From: Pseudomonadota bacterium
Lineage (GTDB): Bacteria > Pseudomonadota > Alphaproteobacteria > Acetobacterales > Acetobacteraceae
Direction of reading: 5' to 3'
DNA: 33,681 nt
Assembly (NCBI GenBank): GCA_021805545.1
Contig: JAJZFB010000007.1
Span: 1-33,681, forward strand
A program made the position numbers and the translations under genes. The first letter of the stretch is position 1. Every line of letters begins with the position of its first letter. Below the pieces are notes generated by a model. That model searched no databases. It was not told where the DNA came from and saw only the letters and a program-made list of their open reading frames with translations. This document shows positions 611 through 29,786 of the stretch, piece by piece.

Positions 611-1048
611 CGCCGTGCCGGATCAACCTTGCTTTGATATTTACGCCACAGCTCCCGATGCCGCGTGACCTTCGGCCGTAACTGCTCGGCGGGCAGAACG
701 CTTTTTTTTGAAGCTGAGCCCTTCATCATGAACAAAGCGCCAGACCTGCACGTAGTCCACTTTCACGCCAAATTCAGCCAGTAGTTCGGCAGCAAGCCCG
801 CGAAGGGTGAAATCGCGTTCAGCCCTGGCAATCAGCCAATCCCGCAAGCCCCCGCTCAATAAGCGTGGCTTGTGTCCCCCCATTGGCAAAGGCGCCGCAC
901 TACCACGCTCACGATAGCGGCAAACCCATCTGATCGCGCTGCTTTCAGAAACATCAAACCGTGCGGCCGCAGCCCGAGCCGACAGTCCGCCAGTCACAAC
1001 GGATTCAACAACCCGCTCGCGTAGATCCATCGAATAGGGCTTCACCAT
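610..1048 (-). pseudogene. IS630-family transposase, orfA plus truncated orfB
   Basis: The frame from ATG 1048 encodes the IS630 N-terminal helix-turn-helix half (MVKPYSMDLRERVVESVVTG, SARAAAARFDVSESSAIRW, ...VQVWRFVHDEGLSFKKK). At the run of eight A's near 703-710 the family normally shifts frame into orfB. In the shifted frame the sequence reads on as SVLPAEQLRPKVTRHRELW and KYQSKVDPAR, which is orfB, and then breaks off into IS256-type sequence at about 610, just before the expected LVFIDET catalytic motif. Without a shift, orfA ends at 641 after 135 residues. The DDE catalytic domain is absent, so this copy cannot transpose itself. SD GGAGG lies 10 nt before the start. Confidence 0.8.
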
Positions 1049-22665: not shown

Positions 22666-22995
22666 TTACGTTTTCATAATATCTTGGTGTGCTTCGTAAA
22701 ATTTATCTAACTCCAAAATTGCACGTCGATACGAGCGGGCGTCGTCTGATGGAACCCCAAAGTCGATGTCATGGGCAATGCTGTCATCGAGCAGCAATCC
22801 AACTGGAAATTTATCGGTGCTTGCTAGATCGACATATAGTCCGTAATCGAGCTTATAGACGATAAATCGCTCTCCTGGACGATGTGCTGCCGAACGGTTT
22901 CGATTCAAAATATGTAGTGCACGTCTGTCAAAAAGTCGATCACATTGGTTGAACTGTCGGCTTTGCTGCGCACTCGCCATGGCGTTCAGTTTGCG
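22666..22995 (-). pseudogene. C-terminal remnant of an unrecognised AT-rich gene
   Basis: A minus-strand frame ends at TAA 22666-22668 with a protein-like sequence (FDRRALHILNRNRSAAHRP, GERFIVYKLDYGLYVDL, LLLDDSIAHDIDFGVPSDDA, RSYRRAILELDKFY). Its upstream part, from about 22995 toward 23028, is simply the antisense of the IS630 remnant, so I conclude that the original N-terminus has been lost at the IS630 boundary. I do not recognise the family. It is visibly AT-richer than the helicase and methyltransferase genes to its left, which points to accessory DNA. An internal ATG at 22980 (MASAQQSRQ) could start a short product, but no ribosome site is evident. Confidence 0.5.
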
Positions 22996-23670
22996 CCCAG
23001 CAGTGTCTGGCGGTTTCTCGACCGTCACGGCATGACCTTCAAAAAAAACGGCGCACGCCGCCGAGCAGGAACGGCCAGACGTCGCGGCCAGGCGTCAGGC
23101 ACAGCCTGATCTTATACCAACGGTCATGCTCAATGACCGTTGGTATTACTGCTGAACACTTGGTCTTTATCGATGAGACTGGTGCAACGACAAAAATGGC
23201 CCGGCTGCGCGGATGGGCCAAACGCGGTCGGCGCTGCATTGCTCCCGTGCCGCACGGACACTGGAAAACCACGACCTTCACCGGCGCGCTGCGGCTGGGC
23301 GGCATGACCGCAGCCAATGCTGCTCGACGGCCCCATGGATCGTGAAATGTTCCAAGCCTACATCGAGCAGGTCCTCGTCCCCAGCCTGCACCGCGGTGAC
23401 ATCGTCGTGATGGACAATCTCCCCGCCCATCGCCCGCCAAACGTCCGCGCCGCCATCGAAGCCGCAGGCGCCACCTTGCTCTACCTGCCGCCCGACTCGC
23501 CAGACCTCAACCCCATCGAAAACGCCTTCTCAAAGCTCAAGGCAATCCTGCGCAAACAAGCCGCAAGAACAATCCAAGACCTGTGGCAGGCCATCGCCGA
23601 CGCGTTGCCAAGGTTCACACCAGAAGAAGCTCAAAACTTCTTCAAAGCAGCAGGATATGGATCAACGTGA
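22990..23670 (+). pseudogene. IS630-family transposase pseudogene, copy 2 (two disruptions)
   Basis: The plus strand carries the end of orfA (SSVWRFLDRHGMTFKK) with the family's run of eight A's, then orfB. The orfB frame is first broken at 23114 by a 33-bp palindrome between QPDL and EHLVF. It resumes with EHLVFIDETGATTKMARLRG, WAKRGRRCIAPVPHG and [16 protein letters not shown] single extra base near 23312 then throws it into another frame, where it continues [20 protein letters not shown] to the DDE-domain end ([39 protein letters not shown]) and TGA 23670. The catalytic Asp in FIDET, Asp in VMDN and Glu in NPIEN are all still encoded but in two frames. The start of orfA is missing. It is a non-functional remnant. 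Confidence 0.85.
23114..23146. repeat. 33-bp palindrome inserted in IS630 orfB
   Basis: ATACCAACGGTCAT, a 5-nt loop GCTCA, then ATGACCGTTGGTAT: perfect 14-bp arms. It replaces the expected Asp-Pro codons between QPDL and EHLVF of the IS630 transposase and shifts the frame. There is no obvious target duplication. It looks like a palindromic mobile repeat of the REP/small-MITE kind. Confidence 0.7.
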
Positions 23671-23683
23671 ACGGATTCCGCTC

Positions 23684-23748
23684 TAGTGTCCACCATGGTT
23701 CTGAAATTCGTGATGTGAAATATCGCGAATTTCAGAACCGGGACACTA
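23684..23748. mobile_element. 65-bp TA-bounded inverted-repeat element (IS630-end pair)
   Basis: The stretch begins TAGTGTCC and ends GGACACTA, so both ends are TA dinucleotides, the target used by IS630/Tc1 elements. Inside, GGTTCTGAAATTCG (23697-23710) and CGAATTTCAGAACC (23726-23739) form a perfect 14-bp inverted repeat. It resembles the two ends of an IS630-type element brought together with nothing between them. A degenerate copy of one end (TTTCAGAACCATCACACTA) lies at 25396-25413. The last TA is shared with the 104-bp MITE that follows. Confidence 0.65.
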
Positions 23749-23850
23749 GAGCATTTTCCGATCAATCGGAAACGCTCCAAATTTGCTTGGGCGAGCAATT
23801 TCATCCGATCAGCTTAAATCTTCGATTCGAGCTGATCGGATATTGCTCTA
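23747..23850 (+). mobile_element. 104-bp MITE, copy A
   Basis: It starts TAGAGCATTTTCCGATCA and ends TGATCGGATATTGCTCTA, so the terminal TAGAGCA/TGCTCTA repeat includes a TA target. Three internal dyads: TTTCCGAT-CA-ATCGGAAA, TTGCT...GAGCAA, and CCGATCAGCTT with its complement near the right end. It differs from copy C at 2 of 104 positions. The right-hand TA provides the stop codon (TAG on the minus strand) of the helicase gene at 23848-25089. Confidence 0.85.
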
Positions 23851-25089
23851 GGCGGCGCGGGCCTTACCGCTTGCATATTGCGGCCGGCGCGGTTTTACCT
23901 TGCGTACCACCATATCCGGATGGCGCTGCGGCTTTTTCGCCGGCTGGGCATGGGCCGGGCGCGTGCCGCTGGCCACATGCATTTTCACGCCCGTCAACTT
24001 CTCAATCTGGTTCAGGTAGGGCAGCTCCGTGGCATCGCAAAACGCCACGGCCGCACCTTCCGCCCCGTTGCGCGCGGTGCGGCCAATGCGGTGCACATAG
24101 CTCTCCGGCTCGTTCGGCAGCTCGTAATTCACCACATGGCTCACGCCCGCCACGTCAATGCCGCGCGCGGCAAGGTCTGTGGCCACCAGCGCGCGCACCT
24201 CGCCAGAGCGGAACGCCTCCAGCGCGCGCTGGCGGGCATTCTGGCCCAAATTGCCATGCATGGCCGCCGCCGCAATTTTGGCGCCGTTCAACTGCAGCGC
24301 CACCTTATCGGCCCCGCGCTTGGTACGGGTAAACACAATGGCGCGGCTGAACTCCGGATCCTTCAACAGGTCGATGAGCAATTGCCGCTTGCCCCCGCCA
24401 TCGACAAAATGAACATGCTGGGTAATTTTGGCCGGGGTGGAGGACACGGCGGCAATGGACACGCGCACCGGGTCGTGCAGCAGCCCCTCGGCCAGCTTGG
24501 AAATTTCCGTGGGCATGGTGGCCGAGAACAAGGCCGATTGCCGCCGCGCGGGCAATGCCGCCACAACCTTGCGGATATCGGGCATGAAGCCCAGGTCAAG
24601 CATACGGTCCGCCTCGTCCAGCACAAAAAACTGGCATTGGTCGATAATCAGGTTGCGCGTGTTCATCAGGTCGCAAATGCGCCCCGGCGTGCCCACCACA
24701 ATATCCGCCCCGCGCGACATGCGGTTAACCTGCCCCATGCGCCCCACGCCGCCGACGATGAGCACGGTGTGCAGCCCCATGCCGGCGCCGAATTTTTTGA
24801 ATTCCTGCTCGATCTGCACCGCCAGCTCGCGCGTGGGGGCCAGAATAAGCGCGCGGGTGGAAAAGCGGCGGTTATGCAGCTTGTTGGCCGCCATCTGCTG
24901 CAGAATTGGCAGGGCGAAGGCCGCCGTCTTGCCGGTGCCGGTCTGGGCGATGCCCAGCACGTCGCGCCCGGCCAGGCCAGCCGGAATGGCGCCTGCCTGA
25001 ATGGGGGTGGGCTTGGCAAAGCCCGCCGCGTTCAGCGCGTGCATAATGGTGCCGGCCAAGCCGAACGAGGCGAAAGTAGCTTCAGTCAT
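23848..25089 (-). CDS. DEAD-box RNA helicase (RhlE-like)
   Basis: 413 residues from ATG 25089 (MTEATFASFGLAGTIM). Motifs in order: Q motif PTPIQAGAIP, motif I AQTGTGKT, Ia PTRELAVQ, GTPGRICDL, II DEAD (FVLDEADRMLD), III SAT, and the second RecA domain with ARGIDVAGV and HRIGRTARNG. A short basic tail (KPQRHPDMVVRKVKPRRP) probably binds RNA. It is a compact RhlE-type helicase, distinct from the larger one at 19812-21542; the two are only moderately alike. The frame extends upstream to 25311 but the added 74 residues are not helicase-like, and ATG 25089 has GGAG about 14 nt upstream. Its TAG stop lies inside MITE copy A. Confidence 0.92.
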   Translation of the reverse strand: MTEATFASFGLAGTIMHALNAAGFAKPTPIQAGAIPAGLAGRDVLGIAQTGTGKTAAFALPILQQMAANKLHNRRFSTRALILAPTRELAVQIEQEFKKFGAGMGLHTVLIVGGVGRMGQVNRMSRGADIVVGTPGRICDLMNTRNLIIDQCQFFVLDEADRMLDLGFMPDIRKVVAALPARRQSALFSATMPTEISKLAEGLLHDPVRVSIAAVSSTPAKITQHVHFVDGGGKRQLLIDLLKDPEFSRAIVFTRTKRGADKVALQLNGAKIAAAAMHGNLGQNARQRALEAFRSGEVRALVATDLAARGIDVAGVSHVVNYELPNEPESYVHRIGRTARNGAEGAAVAFCDATELPYLNQIEKLTGVKMHVASGTRPAHAQPAKKPQRHPDMVVRKVKPRRPQYASGKARAA

Positions 25090-25411
25090 AAAATATACGT
25101 CTCCGGCGCCGCAAGCCCTGTGCCTGCAGCGATATTGTCCGGCTTCCACGCGCGATATTGGAAAAGGACGGTGCAAAATGCCCGTAAGGGACGTCCCCGT
25201 CCCGATAGACAAACCAGCCGCCAAGGCCGGAGCGGGGCTCCGGTCGCGCTTTGGCGGTGACGCGCCGCTTATGCCCATGCCGCACCGCAAAACGCAAGCC
25301 CTGCCGCGCAAGCCTGATACGCAAAGAAAAGGCCAGGGAGCCGAAGCGCCCTGGCCTTTTTGGGCACCAGCAGCCGGGGCTGAGAGCCGGATGATTTCAG
25401 AACCATCACAC
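25090..25411. other. Intergenic region upstream of the RhlE-like helicase
   Basis: About 320 bp without a convincing gene. It holds the long leader and presumably the promoter of the minus-strand helicase, some short dyads (GGGACGTCCC around 25187), the 12-bp-stem terminator at 25327-25360, and a relic of an IS630-type end at 25396-25413. A plus-strand frame from ATG 25178 (MPVRDVPVPIDKP...) is open but runs through the terminator and I do not call it a gene. Confidence 0.5.
25327..25360. terminator. Bidirectional hairpin terminator downstream of the glucan synthase gene
   Basis: AAAAGGCCAGGG, a 10-nt loop, then CCCTGGCCTTTT followed by another T: a 12-bp perfect stem with T runs on both strands (CCTTTTCTTT on the minus strand). 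It lies about 150 nt beyond the GH17-GT2 stop codon and is separated from it by MITE copy B, so the MITE seems to have landed between a gene and its terminator. Confidence 0.75.
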
Positions 25412-25515
25412 TAGAGCAATATCAGATCAGCTTGAATCGAAGATTTAAGCTGATCGGATGAAATTGCTCGCCCAAGCAAATTTAGAGCGTTTCCGATTGA
25501 TCGGAAAATGCTCTA
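25412..25515 (-). mobile_element. 104-bp MITE, copy B (inverted)
   Basis: The same element as copy A in the opposite orientation, with 1 difference from copy C (a G to T near the distal end). The left TA (25412-25413) is shared with an IS630-type end relic, just as copy A abuts the 65-bp element. The other end supplies the TAG stop codon of the minus-strand glucan synthase gene (complement of 25513-25515). Confidence 0.87.
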
Positions 25516-28218
25516 GTCGCCCGCCGCCGGGTGCAAGGCGCCCATGGCGCTAACCGGGCGCACCTTGGCCGGGGCAGGCAGCGCCATAGGCGCCTTGGCC
25601 GGCATGGCCGCCAGGATGGAGACAAAAACCGAGGCCAGATAAGGCATGGACTGGGTGAACAGCACCACGGCCCACAGCTTGGTTTCCAGCGTTGCCCAGT
25701 GGTGGCCAAAGCCAACCCCCAGCGCCGCCGCCCAGGTGAGCACCAGCAGCACCAGCTCCTCACGGGCCATTACCAGCCCCTGCACCAGGGCGGGCGCATC
25801 CTCCATCTTCGGCGTGCGCAGGAAGGGCAGCCTGCTGGTGAACAGGCCTTTCCACACTGCCTTGCCTATGGCGTGGCTCAAAGCCAGCCCGGCCACCGCC
25901 GCGCCCAGCCGGTCCATGAGGCCGCAAGGCACGCGGTTTTTATACAGGGCCAGAATCTGCACGATTTTGAAGAAAAACAGGGCAATGGAGGGCAGCATGA
26001 ACAAGACGATGGGGAACTCGAACCGCACCGGGTCGAAGATCAGCCCCGCGGACCAGGCCAGGCCCATCAGCAGGAACACAATGCCCAGCGCATCGCCAAA
26101 CCAGGGCGCCCAGCCGGCAATGAAGTGCCAGCGCTGGCCTGCCGTCAGCTCCTTGTTGAAGGGGTTGAACAGCGCCCCGGCATTGGCCCGCACAATGCGC
26201 ATGGCGCCATAGGCCCAGCGGTAGCGCTGCTTGCGGAAGGCGTTGTAGTCATCCGGCATCACGCCCTTGCCAAAGCTCTTTTTGGAATAAACCGCCTCGT
26301 ACCCGGCCCGGAACAGGCGCAGGCCAAGCTGGCTGTCCTCGGTAATGCACCATTCCGCCCAGCCGCCTTCGTTCATCAGCGCATCCTTGCGGATCAGCGT
26401 CATGGTGCCGTGCTGGATAATGGCGTTACGCTCGTTACGGGTGACCATGCCGGCATGGAAGAAGCCCGCATATTCCCAGAACATCATGCGCTTGAACAGG
26501 CCGCCGTCATTGTCACGGTAATCCTGCGGCGACTGGGTAAAGCCCACGGCCGGATTATCGAAAGCGGGCACCATGCAGCGCAGCCAGTCCGGGTCCACCA
26601 GATAATCGGAGTCGATCACACCGACCACTTCGGCATCCGGCGCCGTCTCACGCAGGGCGAAGTTGAGCGCGCCCGCCTTGTAGCCCTTGTACTTGCCCAG
26701 GGTGAAGAAGCGGAACTTGGGCCCCAGCCGCGCGCAATGCTCGGCCACCGGCTCCCACACGCGCGGGTCGGTGGTGTTGTTGTCGATCACCAGTACCTCG
26801 AACCGGTCATAATCCAGGTTCGCCAGCGCATCGAGCGTCTGCTTCACCATATGGGGCGGCTCGTTGCAGATGGGCAGGTGCAGCGAGACTTTCGGCAGCC
26901 TGGCACCCGCCGGAGCCGGAATGGGCTCGTAATGGCGGCGTGAGACGCGGCCGAACACGGTTTCCACCAGGTCGAAACCATCGGCGATGAGCAGGAAGAG
27001 CAGCAAGCCCTGCCCCGCCGCCAGCATGCCCCACACGGCGGCGGCGCTGTTGGAGAGATACGTCTCGCCCATGTTCATGAAGAGCAGCGCCAGGACCGAG
27101 GTGAACCCTTCCACCAGCGCGGCGAAAGCCAGCTTGCCCGGCAGGCGGATATCCGGCCGGCGCGAGAGCAGCGCCATGGTGGCAAGCAGCGAGACCAGCG
27201 CCGCGCCCAGCGCGTATTTCAGCCAGCCCGGGTTATTCTGCACCGGCCCGGTAAGCGACCATTTGGCATGGCGGCCCAGGGCAAACATACCCCAATAGCC
27301 GCCCGCGCGCCCCTCGAAGCTGGTTTTCCAGGGCTGGTCGAACGCCTCCATCACGAAATACTGGAGGTGCTTGCGCTGCGCGAGGTTGAAGAAATCGCGC
27401 AGAAAACGGGCCTGGTTGACGACACTTGGATGAGCGGCGCCAATGTTCACACCGTCCGAAGGCCAGCCGATCTCGCCAATAACAATGCGCTTGTTGGGAA
27501 AGCGGTCATGCACTTCCTGCATCCGGTACATCGCATCCTGCACCGCGATCTTTTCCGGCACGCCTTCCCAATAGGGCAGCAGATGGACGTTGATGAAATC
27601 GACGTTTTCGGCGAGCTGCGGATGCTTCAACCAGACATGCCAAGGCTCGGCGGTGGAAACCGGCACATGGGTCTTGGCCTTCACCTGGTCGATATAGGCG
27701 ATAAGCTGCGGCACGGTGAGATCGCCGCGCAGAATGGTCTCGTTACCAACCATGATCTGCTTGACGTCCGGGTTGGCATTGGCAACGCGGATGAGCTTGG
27801 CAACCTCCGCCTCATTGGCATTGGGGTGCCGGTCCAGCCAGCCGCCCAGCGTGACCTTAAGGTGCATGCCCTCGGCCAGGGCCGGAATCTGGCCAAGGTC
27901 GCCCTGCACCGTATAGGTGCTGATATTGTGGGTATATTTAGCGGCAAGGGCCAGGTCGGACTTTATCTGCGCCACGCTGGGATACACCCCCGTCGCGGGG
28001 CTTTCCCCTTTATGGAAGGGCGAAAAGGCGAAACCGCCAATCTCGCCGCGATAGGGCGGAATATCCGTTACCGGCCGGTTGGCCGCGGCCCACAGGCCAA
28101 ACGCCACCACCCCCACACCCATGGCGGCTGCCCAGGAAGACGGGCTGGCCCAGCCGCGGCGGGCTTTACGTGTGGAAATCTGCGCGGCTTCACGCTGGAT
28201 TTGCGAGTGGTACGTCAT
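25513..28218 (-). CDS. GH17-GT2 fusion membrane protein, probable beta-1,3-glucan synthase (NdvB-like)
   Basis: 901 residues. After one membrane anchor (about 28-46), residues 58-320 form a glycoside hydrolase family 17 domain with the acid/base Glu160 in VGNETI and the nucleophile Glu249 in VIGEIGWPSDG. Two or three membrane helices follow (about 333-420), then a GT2 glycosyltransferase domain: SLHLPICNEPP, DNNTTD, the DSD metal site (536-538), TED (626-628) and QRYRW (664-668), then four or more membrane helices. This is the layout of NdvB-type cyclic or branched beta-1,3-glucan synthases, where GT2 polymerises UDP-glucose and GH17 remodels or cyclises the chain in the periplasm. The product is inferred. 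The last residues end at a TAG provided by MITE copy B, so the native C-terminus may differ slightly. Confidence 0.9.
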   Translation of the reverse strand: MTYHSQIQREAAQISTRKARRGWASPSSWAAAMGVGVVAFGLWAAANRPVTDIPPYRGEIGGFAFSPFHKGESPATGVYPSVAQIKSDLALAAKYTHNISTYTVQGDLGQIPALAEGMHLKVTLGGWLDRHPNANEAEVAKLIRVANANPDVKQIMVGNETILRGDLTVPQLIAYIDQVKAKTHVPVSTAEPWHVWLKHPQLAENVDFINVHLLPYWEGVPEKIAVQDAMYRMQEVHDRFPNKRIVIGEIGWPSDGVNIGAAHPSVVNQARFLRDFFNLAQRKHLQYFVMEAFDQPWKTSFEGRAGGYWGMFALGRHAKWSLTGPVQNNPGWLKYALGAALVSLLATMALLSRRPDIRLPGKLAFAALVEGFTSVLALLFMNMGETYLSNSAAAVWGMLAAGQGLLLFLLIADGFDLVETVFGRVSRRHYEPIPAPAGARLPKVSLHLPICNEPPHMVKQTLDALANLDYDRFEVLVIDNNTTDPRVWEPVAEHCARLGPKFRFFTLGKYKGYKAGALNFALRETAPDAEVVGVIDSDYLVDPDWLRCMVPAFDNPAVGFTQSPQDYRDNDGGLFKRMMFWEYAGFFHAGMVTRNERNAIIQHGTMTLIRKDALMNEGGWAEWCITEDSQLGLRLFRAGYEAVYSKKSFGKGVMPDDYNAFRKQRYRWAYGAMRIVRANAGALFNPFNKELTAGQRWHFIAGWAPWFGDALGIVFLLMGLAWSAGLIFDPVRFEFPIVLFMLPSIALFFFKIVQILALYKNRVPCGLMDRLGAAVAGLALSHAIGKAVWKGLFTSRLPFLRTPKMEDAPALVQGLVMAREELVLLVLTWAAALGVGFGHHWATLETKLWAVVLFTQSMPYLASVFVSILAAMPAKAPMALPAPAKVRPVSAMGALHPAAGD

Positions 28219-28379
28219 GAATGAGGGTCCAAACCTGTCCGGGGAAACTCAGATGTAACGATCCATGACAGGCCAGTGCGGCACGGGCTGGGCGCGATTG
28301 TGTTCCAACTAAGGCAAACACATTCCGAATCCGCATCTGCCCCATGCCCGCCATACTGCGCGGGCGCGGAAATATGCGC

Positions 28380-28483
28380 TAGAGCATTTTCCGATCAATC
28401 GGAAACGCTCTAAATTTGCTTGGGCGAGCAATTTCATCCGATCAGCTTAAATCTTCGATTCAAGCTGATCGGATATTGCTCTA
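28380..28483 (+). mobile_element. 104-bp MITE, copy C
   Basis: The same orientation as copy A; TAGAGCATTTTCCGATCA to TGATCGGATATTGCTCTA. In this copy the internal GCTCTA (about 28407-28412) is intact, so the left 33 bp is itself a TAGAGC...GCTCTA palindrome. It lies in the 275-bp divergent region between the glucan synthase and the CorC-type gene and ends 10 bp before the latter's ATG. Confidence 0.87.
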
Positions 28484-28493
28484 GAACCAGCTC

Positions 28494-29786
28494 ATGCCCC
28501 TTACCCTTCAGCTCATCATCCTGGCCCTGCTCATCCTCCTCAACGGCGCCTTCGCGCTGGCCGAGCTTGCCCTTGTATCCGCCCGGCGGGCCATGCTGGC
28601 GCTTATGGAGCGCCAGCACATGCGCGGCGCGGCGCGGGCCAAGGTTCTGGCGGATAACCCGCAGAGCTTCCTGCCCACCACCCAGTTCGGCATCACGCTC
28701 ATCGGCATCCTCACCGGCGCCTTTGGCGGCGACCAGCTTGCCGCGCGCCTGGACGTGCCGCTGCTCACCCTGCCCTATATCGGCCATTATGCCGGGCCGC
28801 TCAGCGTGGTGCTCACGGTGCTCGCCATCACCTTTCTCACGCTGGTATTTGGCGAGCTGGTGCCCAAGCAGCTTGCCCTGCGCCAGCCAGAGCGCCTTTC
28901 CACCCTGGTGGCCGGGCCCATCGCGCTGCTGGCCAGGGCGGCGGCCCCGGCGGTGTGGCTGCTCGGCGTCTCCACCCGGCTGGTGCTGCGCCTGTTCGGC
29001 CCCGAGCCGGAAGACCCCCGCCAGGTGAGCGAGGAAGAGCTGAAGGCCATTCTGGTGGAGGGTGCTGAAACCGGCATGCTGGAAACGGAAGAGCGCGACA
29101 TTATCGAGCGCGTGCTGCGCCTGGCCGACAAACCCGTGCGCGCCATCATGACCCCGCGCACGGAAATCATCTGGATAGACCGCACCGCCACGCAGGCCGA
29201 TATAATTGCCGTTCTGCACAAGGCCCCGCATTCGCGCTTTGTGGTGTGCGACCGCACGGTGGACAATGTAACCGGCGTGGTGCAGGCCAAGGATTTGCTG
29301 GACCGCGCCCTGGCCGGCAAACCCTTCACCCTTACCGAAGCGCTACGCCGCCCGCTGGCCATACCCGATTCCGTAACGGCGCTGGAGGCGCTGGAACGGC
29401 TGAAGGGCGACCAGTTCGGCATGGCGCTGGTGCTGGACGAATATGGCAGCTTCGAAGGCATTATTACGGCCGCCGACGTGCTGGAAGCCATTGTAGGCGA
29501 TTCCGAAACCTCCGGCCCGCCCGCCCACGCCCCGGAACCGCCGCCCGACACAATGTACGAGCTGGACGGCATGACCCCCGTGGACGAAGCCAAAGCCCGC
29601 CTGCATTTGCCCAAACTGCCCGCCCAAGGCAGCTACCACACGCTGGCCGGACTGATCCTAGCCTTACTGCTCCGCCCCGCCCACAAAGGCGACGCCATTT
29701 TGTTTGGGGGCTGGAAGTTCGAGGTGCTGGCAATGGATGGGCGGCGGATTGAGCGCGTGCGCGTGGTGCGGGAGACGGGGGAGTGA
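28494..29786 (+). CDS. HlyC/CorC family (CNNM-CBS) transporter protein
   Basis: 430 residues. An N-terminal CNNM/DUF21 domain (about 1-185) with three to four membrane helices and the NGAFALAELALVSARR and TLVFGELVPKQLAL motifs; a CBS pair (about 205-335, VRAIMTPRTEIIWID, then VLDEYGSFEGIITAADVLE); and a C-terminal CorC_HlyC domain (about 350-425). The family is linked to Mg2+/Co2+ efflux and Mg2+ homeostasis; the name hemolysin in older annotations is misleading. There is no Shine-Dalgarno sequence, since the ATG begins 10 bp after MITE copy C, which has probably displaced the original leader. Confidence 0.9.
   Translation: MPLTLQLIILALLILLNGAFALAELALVSARRAMLALMERQHMRGAARAKVLADNPQSFLPTTQFGITLIGILTGAFGGDQLAARLDVPLLTLPYIGHYAGPLSVVLTVLAITFLTLVFGELVPKQLALRQPERLSTLVAGPIALLARAAAPAVWLLGVSTRLVLRLFGPEPEDPRQVSEEELKAILVEGAETGMLETEERDIIERVLRLADKPVRAIMTPRTEIIWIDRTATQADIIAVLHKAPHSRFVVCDRTVDNVTGVVQAKDLLDRALAGKPFTLTEALRRPLAIPDSVTALEALERLKGDQFGMALVLDEYGSFEGIITAADVLEAIVGDSETSGPPAHAPEPPPDTMYELDGMTPVDEAKARLHLPKLPAQGSYHTLAGLILALLLRPAHKGDAILFGGWKFEVLAMDGRRIERVRVVRETGE

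Follow-up and report, generated by a model that had tools for sequence, protein, structure and literature searches.

The locus and its repeats

The window analysed here, a stretch of 33,681 nt, is contig 3 of a draft genome of the Acetobacteraceae (2.79 Mb, 96 contigs). Within it, three copies of a 104-bp repeat accompany a DEAD-box helicase gene, a glycosyltransferase gene, a second TA-ended repeat and the remnant of an IS630-family insertion sequence (Table 1). All three copies are 104 bp long with TAGAGCA...TGCTCTA ends, and their pairwise identities of 97, 98 and 99 % (1–3 differences) bear out the near-identity reported in a preliminary description of this DNA. Such similarity is far beyond chance (E ~1e-45) and supports the recent spread proposed there. 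A length of 104 bp leaves no room for a transposase gene. The whole-genome search suggested in the same description found 25 near-full-length copies at 95–100 % identity and approximately 16 partial ones, the rest of the 69 rows returned being palindrome self-matches. One pair of 104-bp copies lies in tandem, with a single TA between them.

Table 1. Features of the 104-bp repeat and its surroundings in the window
Feature	Position	Strand	Remarks
IS630-family remnant (DDE_3 piece 23317–23670)	22981..23685	+	right end TAGAGCGGAATCCGTTCACG on the other strand
Second TA-ended repeat hairpin (TAGTGTCC...GGGACACTA)	23684..23748	+	adjoins copy 1
MITE copy 1	23747..23850	+	left TA common to the neighbouring second repeat
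TAG stop of DEAD-box helicase gene	23848..23850	-	provided by the terminus of copy 1; G017 has TAA
MITE copy 2	25412..25515	-	inverted; site empty in G017
TAG stop of glycosyltransferase gene	25513..25515	-	provided by the terminus of copy 2; G017 has TAA
MITE copy 3	28380..28483	+	sequence identical to 8 other full copies
Hairpin A, copy 3	28380..28412	+	IS630-right-end-like terminus, folded back on itself
Linker, copy 3	28413..28423	+	
Hairpin B, copy 3	28424..28483	+	folded-back terminus resembling an IS630 left end; TTC bulge conserved
GATTC (GANTC, CcrM-type site)	28457..28461	+	positions 23–27 from the hairpin-B end

Other repeats keep company with the element. The TAGTGTCC...GGGACACTA repeat gives 80 rows in a blastn search of the genome, a figure that includes palindrome self-matches; elsewhere it takes the form of twin hairpins with a linker, often adjoining the 104-bp element. 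A third family (GCGCGATGACTTGAGATGCGC...) lies beside the element in the flanks of loci L019, L022 and L025, in L022 just after it.

Empty sites in related genomes

The sites of copies 1 and 2 are empty in the related genome G017 (flank identity 90–93 %) and in nine less similar relatives, and the element is absent from the intergenic region of site 3 in all 10 relatives listed that hold the interval. Without the element, the helicase gene of G017 ends in GCG-TAA, as against GCC-TAG in the window, and its glycosyltransferase gene in GAC-TAA, as against GAC-TAG; both window TAG codons are the element's own end. When the flanks of 12 further sites of the genome were joined in silico and compared with five genomes, two aligned without a break over the junction in G017, as did one in G022, and at some others homology stopped at the TA. 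At L004, L009, L013, L019 and L022 the gene terminates at that codon in a relative too (as TAA, TAG or TGA), and the L003 site reads GG, not TA, in G017. Filled sites have TA at both ends and several empty orthologous sites a single TA, in keeping with a TA target that is duplicated on insertion; this is the kind of empty site that the preliminary description had looked to relatives to supply.

Folding, distribution and covariation

Copy 3 comprises a hairpin A of 33 nt (TAGAGC...GCTCTA), a linker of 11 nt and a hairpin B of 60 nt, the last running through GAGCAAT, a TTC bulge, a long stem, ATTGCTC and TA. Three adjacent hairpins had been described initially; RNA folding rejects that arrangement in favour of two main hairpins and a linker, with z-scores of -9.2 and -8.7 on the two strands. 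The GAGCAA of the supposed TTGCT...GAGCAA dyad pairs instead with the TTGCTC of the 3' end, forming the foot of hairpin B with its 3-nt TTC bulge. Rfam gave no matches in the window at gathering thresholds.

A search of relatives, also proposed at the outset, found the family by a hairpin-B-foot pattern in 14 of 38 genomes of the genus (own genome included), the reversed control matching in none of them. Among the matches listed, the pattern also occurs in records of Acidiphilium, Elioraea, Rhodopila, Rhodovastum, Limobrevibacterium and Acidisphaera. Across the Acetobacteraceae the stem sequences vary and pairing is mostly kept, the inner stem of hairpin B being unconstrained by the search pattern. 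For the 61-nt form of hairpin B, the six outer pairs are kept in 59–73 of 74 distinct sequences, with at most four pair types, and some loop-proximal pairs do no better than independence; the same is true of several pairs in the 60-nt form (19 sequences). An alignment of 30 sequences, taken from 46 dereplicated sequences out of 93 copies with a recognisable hairpin A, has two-sided changes at 27 of 39 pairs (shuffled mean 20.5) and 85 % of cells paired (71.5 % when shuffled), a choice of copies that favours pairing in helix A and leaves hairpin B unaffected. Its covariation score of 0.376 compares with 0.148 for shuffled alignments (0 of 500 as high) and 0.06–0.09 when the alignment was slid. 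The corresponding covariance model matched 12 of 385 genomes, own included; none of the four other genomes drawn from the same family matched, so the model finds only part of the class.

Related IS630 elements

PF13358 searches of sister genomes identified IS630 elements with TAGAGC ends. The element of G028 is 1054 bp long and has two ORFs in different frames, matching HTH_Tnp_IS630 and DDE_3, with a run of seven A residues between them. Frameshifting is a known trait of IS630 elements; the A7 run suggests a frameshift of this type, and the G028 element is therefore called apparently intact, as are its copies (98 % identity) in G014 and G036. The predicted IS630 elements with matching ends accordingly exist, the end sequence being TAGAGCATTTTCCGATCAA in G028 and G014 and TAGAGCAGTTTCCGATCAA in G036. 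The right end of the G028 element, TTGATCGGAAAATGCTCTA, is the outer arm of MITE hairpin A over 19 bp, and the left ends of IS630 elements are similar to hairpin B. Past the TAGAGC, the best-matching MITE end agrees at 14–17 of 22 bases for nine of 10 IS ends, and exceeds the shuffled maximum for eight of the 10. The right end of the G023 element agrees at 10 of 22 bases, below a shuffled maximum of 13, and the left end of the G025 element at 14 of 22, against 15; the remnant in the window reaches only 14 of 22 at its right end, against 13. Matching follows sequence type, with TCCGATCA-type IS elements resembling TCCGATCA-type MITEs and TTGGTTTA-type IS elements resembling TTGGTTTA-type MITEs. 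It does not follow genome, the MITEs of G023 being unlike the G023 IS. No MITE was found in G028 or G014 by blastn or pattern, though both carry the IS630 element.

The IS630-family remnants initially noticed in the window are represented by the DDE_3 piece of Table 1, which belongs to a remnant that ends beside the repeat adjoining copy 1. This remnant and one frame lacking TAGAGC ends on both sides are all that was found of the family in the draft genome (97.75 % complete); no intact helper IS630 with TAGAGC ends was found there. For an IS630-family MITE a helper in its own genome is usual, though not a strict part of the definition. The window also holds a truncated HTH piece, probably of a transposase (641–1048, reverse strand), with the edge of a CACACTAGAATC repeat at 1136. 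At L207, a solo 29-bp palindrome, TAGAGCGGATCACGACGTGATCCGCTCTA, occupies positions 1956–1984 next to the end of an IS630 element, which might mean that hairpin A can move on its own.

Insertion context and stop codons

In their own genome the copies sit in CTAG, with C before the TA in 23 of 25 cases and G after it in 22 of the 23 that have TA there. Copies elsewhere lie in YTAR, with Y preceding the TA in 54 of 61 cases and R following it in 95 of 103; these counts omit copies near a contig end, and the hairpin-A end was testable in 61 of the 103. CTAG occurs 16 times in the window, as against 116 expected from base composition and 13.8 from trinucleotides, and seven of the 16 sites are edges of the 104-bp repeats or of the adjoining repeat.

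By the gene calls used, a stop codon is formed by the end of the element at 10 of the 25 own copies (null, 35 of 642 intergenic TA sites; p 3.5e-7). The same calls give 44 of the 103 copies elsewhere, five of them at both ends (null, 190 of 2456, with loci that overlap each other in part). These counts rely on a home-made gene caller trained on 17 chosen ORFs of the window; by a pattern-based count, 19 own copies fit the pattern and have eight stop-forming ends. A gene truncated by the element could mimic such a case, and this is excluded for seven of the 10 own cases, in which the orthologous gene of a relative has its stop at this very codon. None of 30 own places and none of the 103 other copies falls within a called gene, a test that an element-split gene would escape. 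With five of the 103 copies set aside for an unknown neighbour, 54 of 98 lie between convergent genes (453 of 2456 intergenic TA sites) and seven between divergent genes (666 of 2456); own copies are less clearly placed, with seven of 19 between convergent genes. Within 60 nt of a stop, where 79 of 104 copies are found, 77 of 190 YTAR sites (40 %) are in any case the TA of a stop codon. There is thus no need to assume that stop codons are targeted as such, and tolerance of insertion at 3' ends combined with a YTAR preference explains most of the overlap.

A fixed GANTC site

GANTC, the CcrM-type site, is present in all three window copies, against a background of 1.9 per kb in the window. Over the whole family it occurs in 71 of 134 copies and so is not universal; in 67 of the 134 it starts exactly at base 23 from the hairpin-B end. 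The same placement is seen in four of five IS630 left ends and in none of four right ends. It recurs in 14 of 20 look-alikes that the covariance model found in other alphaproteobacterial families, these being 20 of 27 loci listed, less seven that were partial or misplaced, and including one element counted at two sites (L274 and L283).

Origin of the repeat and competing explanations

The best explanation, to which a probability of about 0.88 is attached, is that the 104-bp repeat is a non-autonomous IS630-family MITE whose anatomy resembles that of the CcrM-associated intergenic repeats (CIR). The MITE with IS630-type ends and a TA target envisaged in the preliminary description is supported by the matching IS630 ends and the empty sites; the placement at stop codons, the covarying stems, the GANTC site at a fixed position and the look-alikes elsewhere in the class go beyond that description. 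The element would consist of two IS630 ends, each folded back into a long hairpin, with the 11-nt linker between. The GANTC of hairpin B has the position that it takes in matching IS630 elements at the left end, where the transposase gene has its 5' end. The repeat would be moved by cut-and-paste into TA, here in a CTAG context, by an IS630 transposase supplied in trans, and each insertion into CTAG would leave two CTAG sites. Either strand of the element starts with TAG, so that a TAA or TAG stop codon interrupted at its TA would regain a stop. Most surviving copies would be those near the 3' ends of genes, in many cases with a convergent gene as neighbour. Several observations count against this explanation: the draft genome yielded no intact helper, some IS ends match poorly, matching does not follow genome, G028 and G014 have the IS without the MITE, the L003 site reads GG in G017, and only half of the copies have GANTC at base 23. 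Mobility alone, moreover, does not require covarying stems.

Covariation would follow if the host had selected the repeat as an RNA element, its 3'-end hairpins serving as terminators or stabilisers and selection keeping them paired. This account is compatible with a mobile origin, and it seems unlikely. In its favour, covariation extends to the TAGAGC/GCTCTA pairs at the termini, at which a change ought to be damaging to transposition: of 17 double changes seen in these six pairs over 56 copies, 16 restore pairing, and approximately four doubles were expected. Against this stand the 40 one-sided changes left in the same pairs (25 unpaired, 15 wobble). The excess between convergent genes and the deficit between divergent ones suit such a role, but the convergent placement is less clear among own copies, and promoter avoidance would explain 3'-end placement without function. 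One copy in Acidocella facilis scores as terminator-like; by contrast, all seven terminator-like sites of positions 23600–28600 lie outside the copies, leaving the terminator role first suggested for the repeat unsupported in its own genome, and folding is strong on both strands. Insertion sites common to different species were absent from the sampled loci, so a long-kept locus is not demonstrated. A terminator or RNA role is, at present, unproven.

Paired arms could also arise with no selection if polymerase switched templates within the palindromes and copied one arm onto the other, a process likewise compatible with a mobile origin and given slightly less than even odds. Here the pairing appears to exceed the element, since host bases one and two positions outside hairpin A match the linker. 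Canonical copies (n = 34) have 21 matches at offset 1 (mean 12.3, p 0.0005) and 16 at offset 2 (mean 9.1, p 0.0065). Non-canonical copies (n = 28) have 15 at offset 1 (p 0.07) and 16 at offset 2 (0 of 2000 shuffles as high), and offsets 3–6 give nothing. In A. facilis, the base at offset 1 is paired in 15 of 20 copies (p 0.015 for T/C versus A/G, one-sided Fisher test). However, these figures come from the 62 of 134 copies that were usable, several offsets were tested, and the shuffles keep relatedness; hairpin B gives no comparable extension to test, and selection for longer stems would look alike. Either template switching or selection for arm pairing could produce the pattern. Far less probable than both is a repeat of REP/BIME type, for which a Y1 (RAYT) transposase would recognise the bulged hairpins and move the element as single-stranded DNA. 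The twin hairpins and conserved bulge recall such repeats, but REP/RAYT hairpins bear GTAG/CGTC tags, whereas the 104-bp repeat has TAGAGC ends bounded by TA in a CTAG context and matching IS630 in sequence.

Relation to known repeats

The mobile element favoured here has its closest counterparts among published repeat families. CIR, reported by Chen and Shapiro (2003) and summarised in section 7 of Delihas (2007; PMC2229807), were described from Caulobacter and Brucella as alphaproteobacterial repeats of approximately 110 bp. They have two long inverted repeats, that is two arms and a linker; one arm bears GANTC at its terminal loop, the termini are TA, and the position is exclusively intergenic. 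By these descriptions, on which the comparison is based, the 104-bp repeat is like them in size, in its two arms and linker, in the one-arm GANTC at a terminal loop, in its TA termini and in its intergenic position. The review names no transposase for CIR and, in that section, asks for more information on their movement (PMC2229807), whereas the 104-bp repeat has matching IS630 ends, which offer a testable answer to the mobility question raised there. RUP of Streptococcus pneumoniae is a non-autonomous element of 107 bp with a TA target and ends that match IS630-Spn1 (PMC2229807), and so is similar in size, target and IS630-matching ends. As the review presents them, repeats other than CIR are stem-loops formed by pairing of their two ends (PMC2229807); the 104-bp repeat differs from RUP in its two separate fold-back arms, covarying stems and GANTC site. 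ERIC and Correia (NEMIS) repeats are also small and TA-flanked in that account (PMC2229807), but differ in ends and hosts. Among the literature matches listed, no paper links IS630 with CIR, RIME, CcrM repeats or stop codons.

A broader proposal is that CIR, the rhizobial twin palindromes and the 104-bp repeat form one class-wide superfamily of IS630-derived, twin-fold-back MITEs with a CcrM site at base 23, methylation-timed movement, persistence through landing in stop codons and re-making them, and, after landing, copying of arms that includes host bases. The odds on this combination are judged to be even. If it is true, movement may be timed by cell-cycle methylation through the CcrM site of the parent's left end. 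A methylation site that keeps its place in the repeat as well as in the left end of the IS suggests that transposition is controlled in step with replication, as it is for IS10 through Dam. Landing on stop codons would let the repeat spread with little harm in gene-dense, TA-poor genomes.

RIME, a rhizobial repeat, has two palindromes. Names and citations of these palindromic repeats appear in PMC2573895 and PMC2873474. A repeat on Rhizobium plasmids, not equated here with published RIME, resembles the 104-bp repeat in having a TAGAGC...GCTCTA hairpin, a linker and a second TA-ended hairpin, and differs in its stem sequences and, in L313, in lacking GANTC at base 23. Of three Rhizobium copies compared with the covariance model, one scored E 4e-6, one E 0.18 and one gave no match. 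Several of 348 Rhizobium plasmid records carry twin palindromes with TAGAGC ends on annotated stop codons. Annotation was available for 34 of the 40 rows listed, and in 17 the match overlaps a CDS; of the eight of these 17 inspected, six overlap exactly the last 3 bases of the CDS and the other two overlap by 43 and 53 bases. Three copies had been examined earlier: in two the gene ends at 1492 and 1495 and the match starts at 1501, and the third, from Mesorhizobium, likewise overlaps exactly the last 3 bases of a gene.
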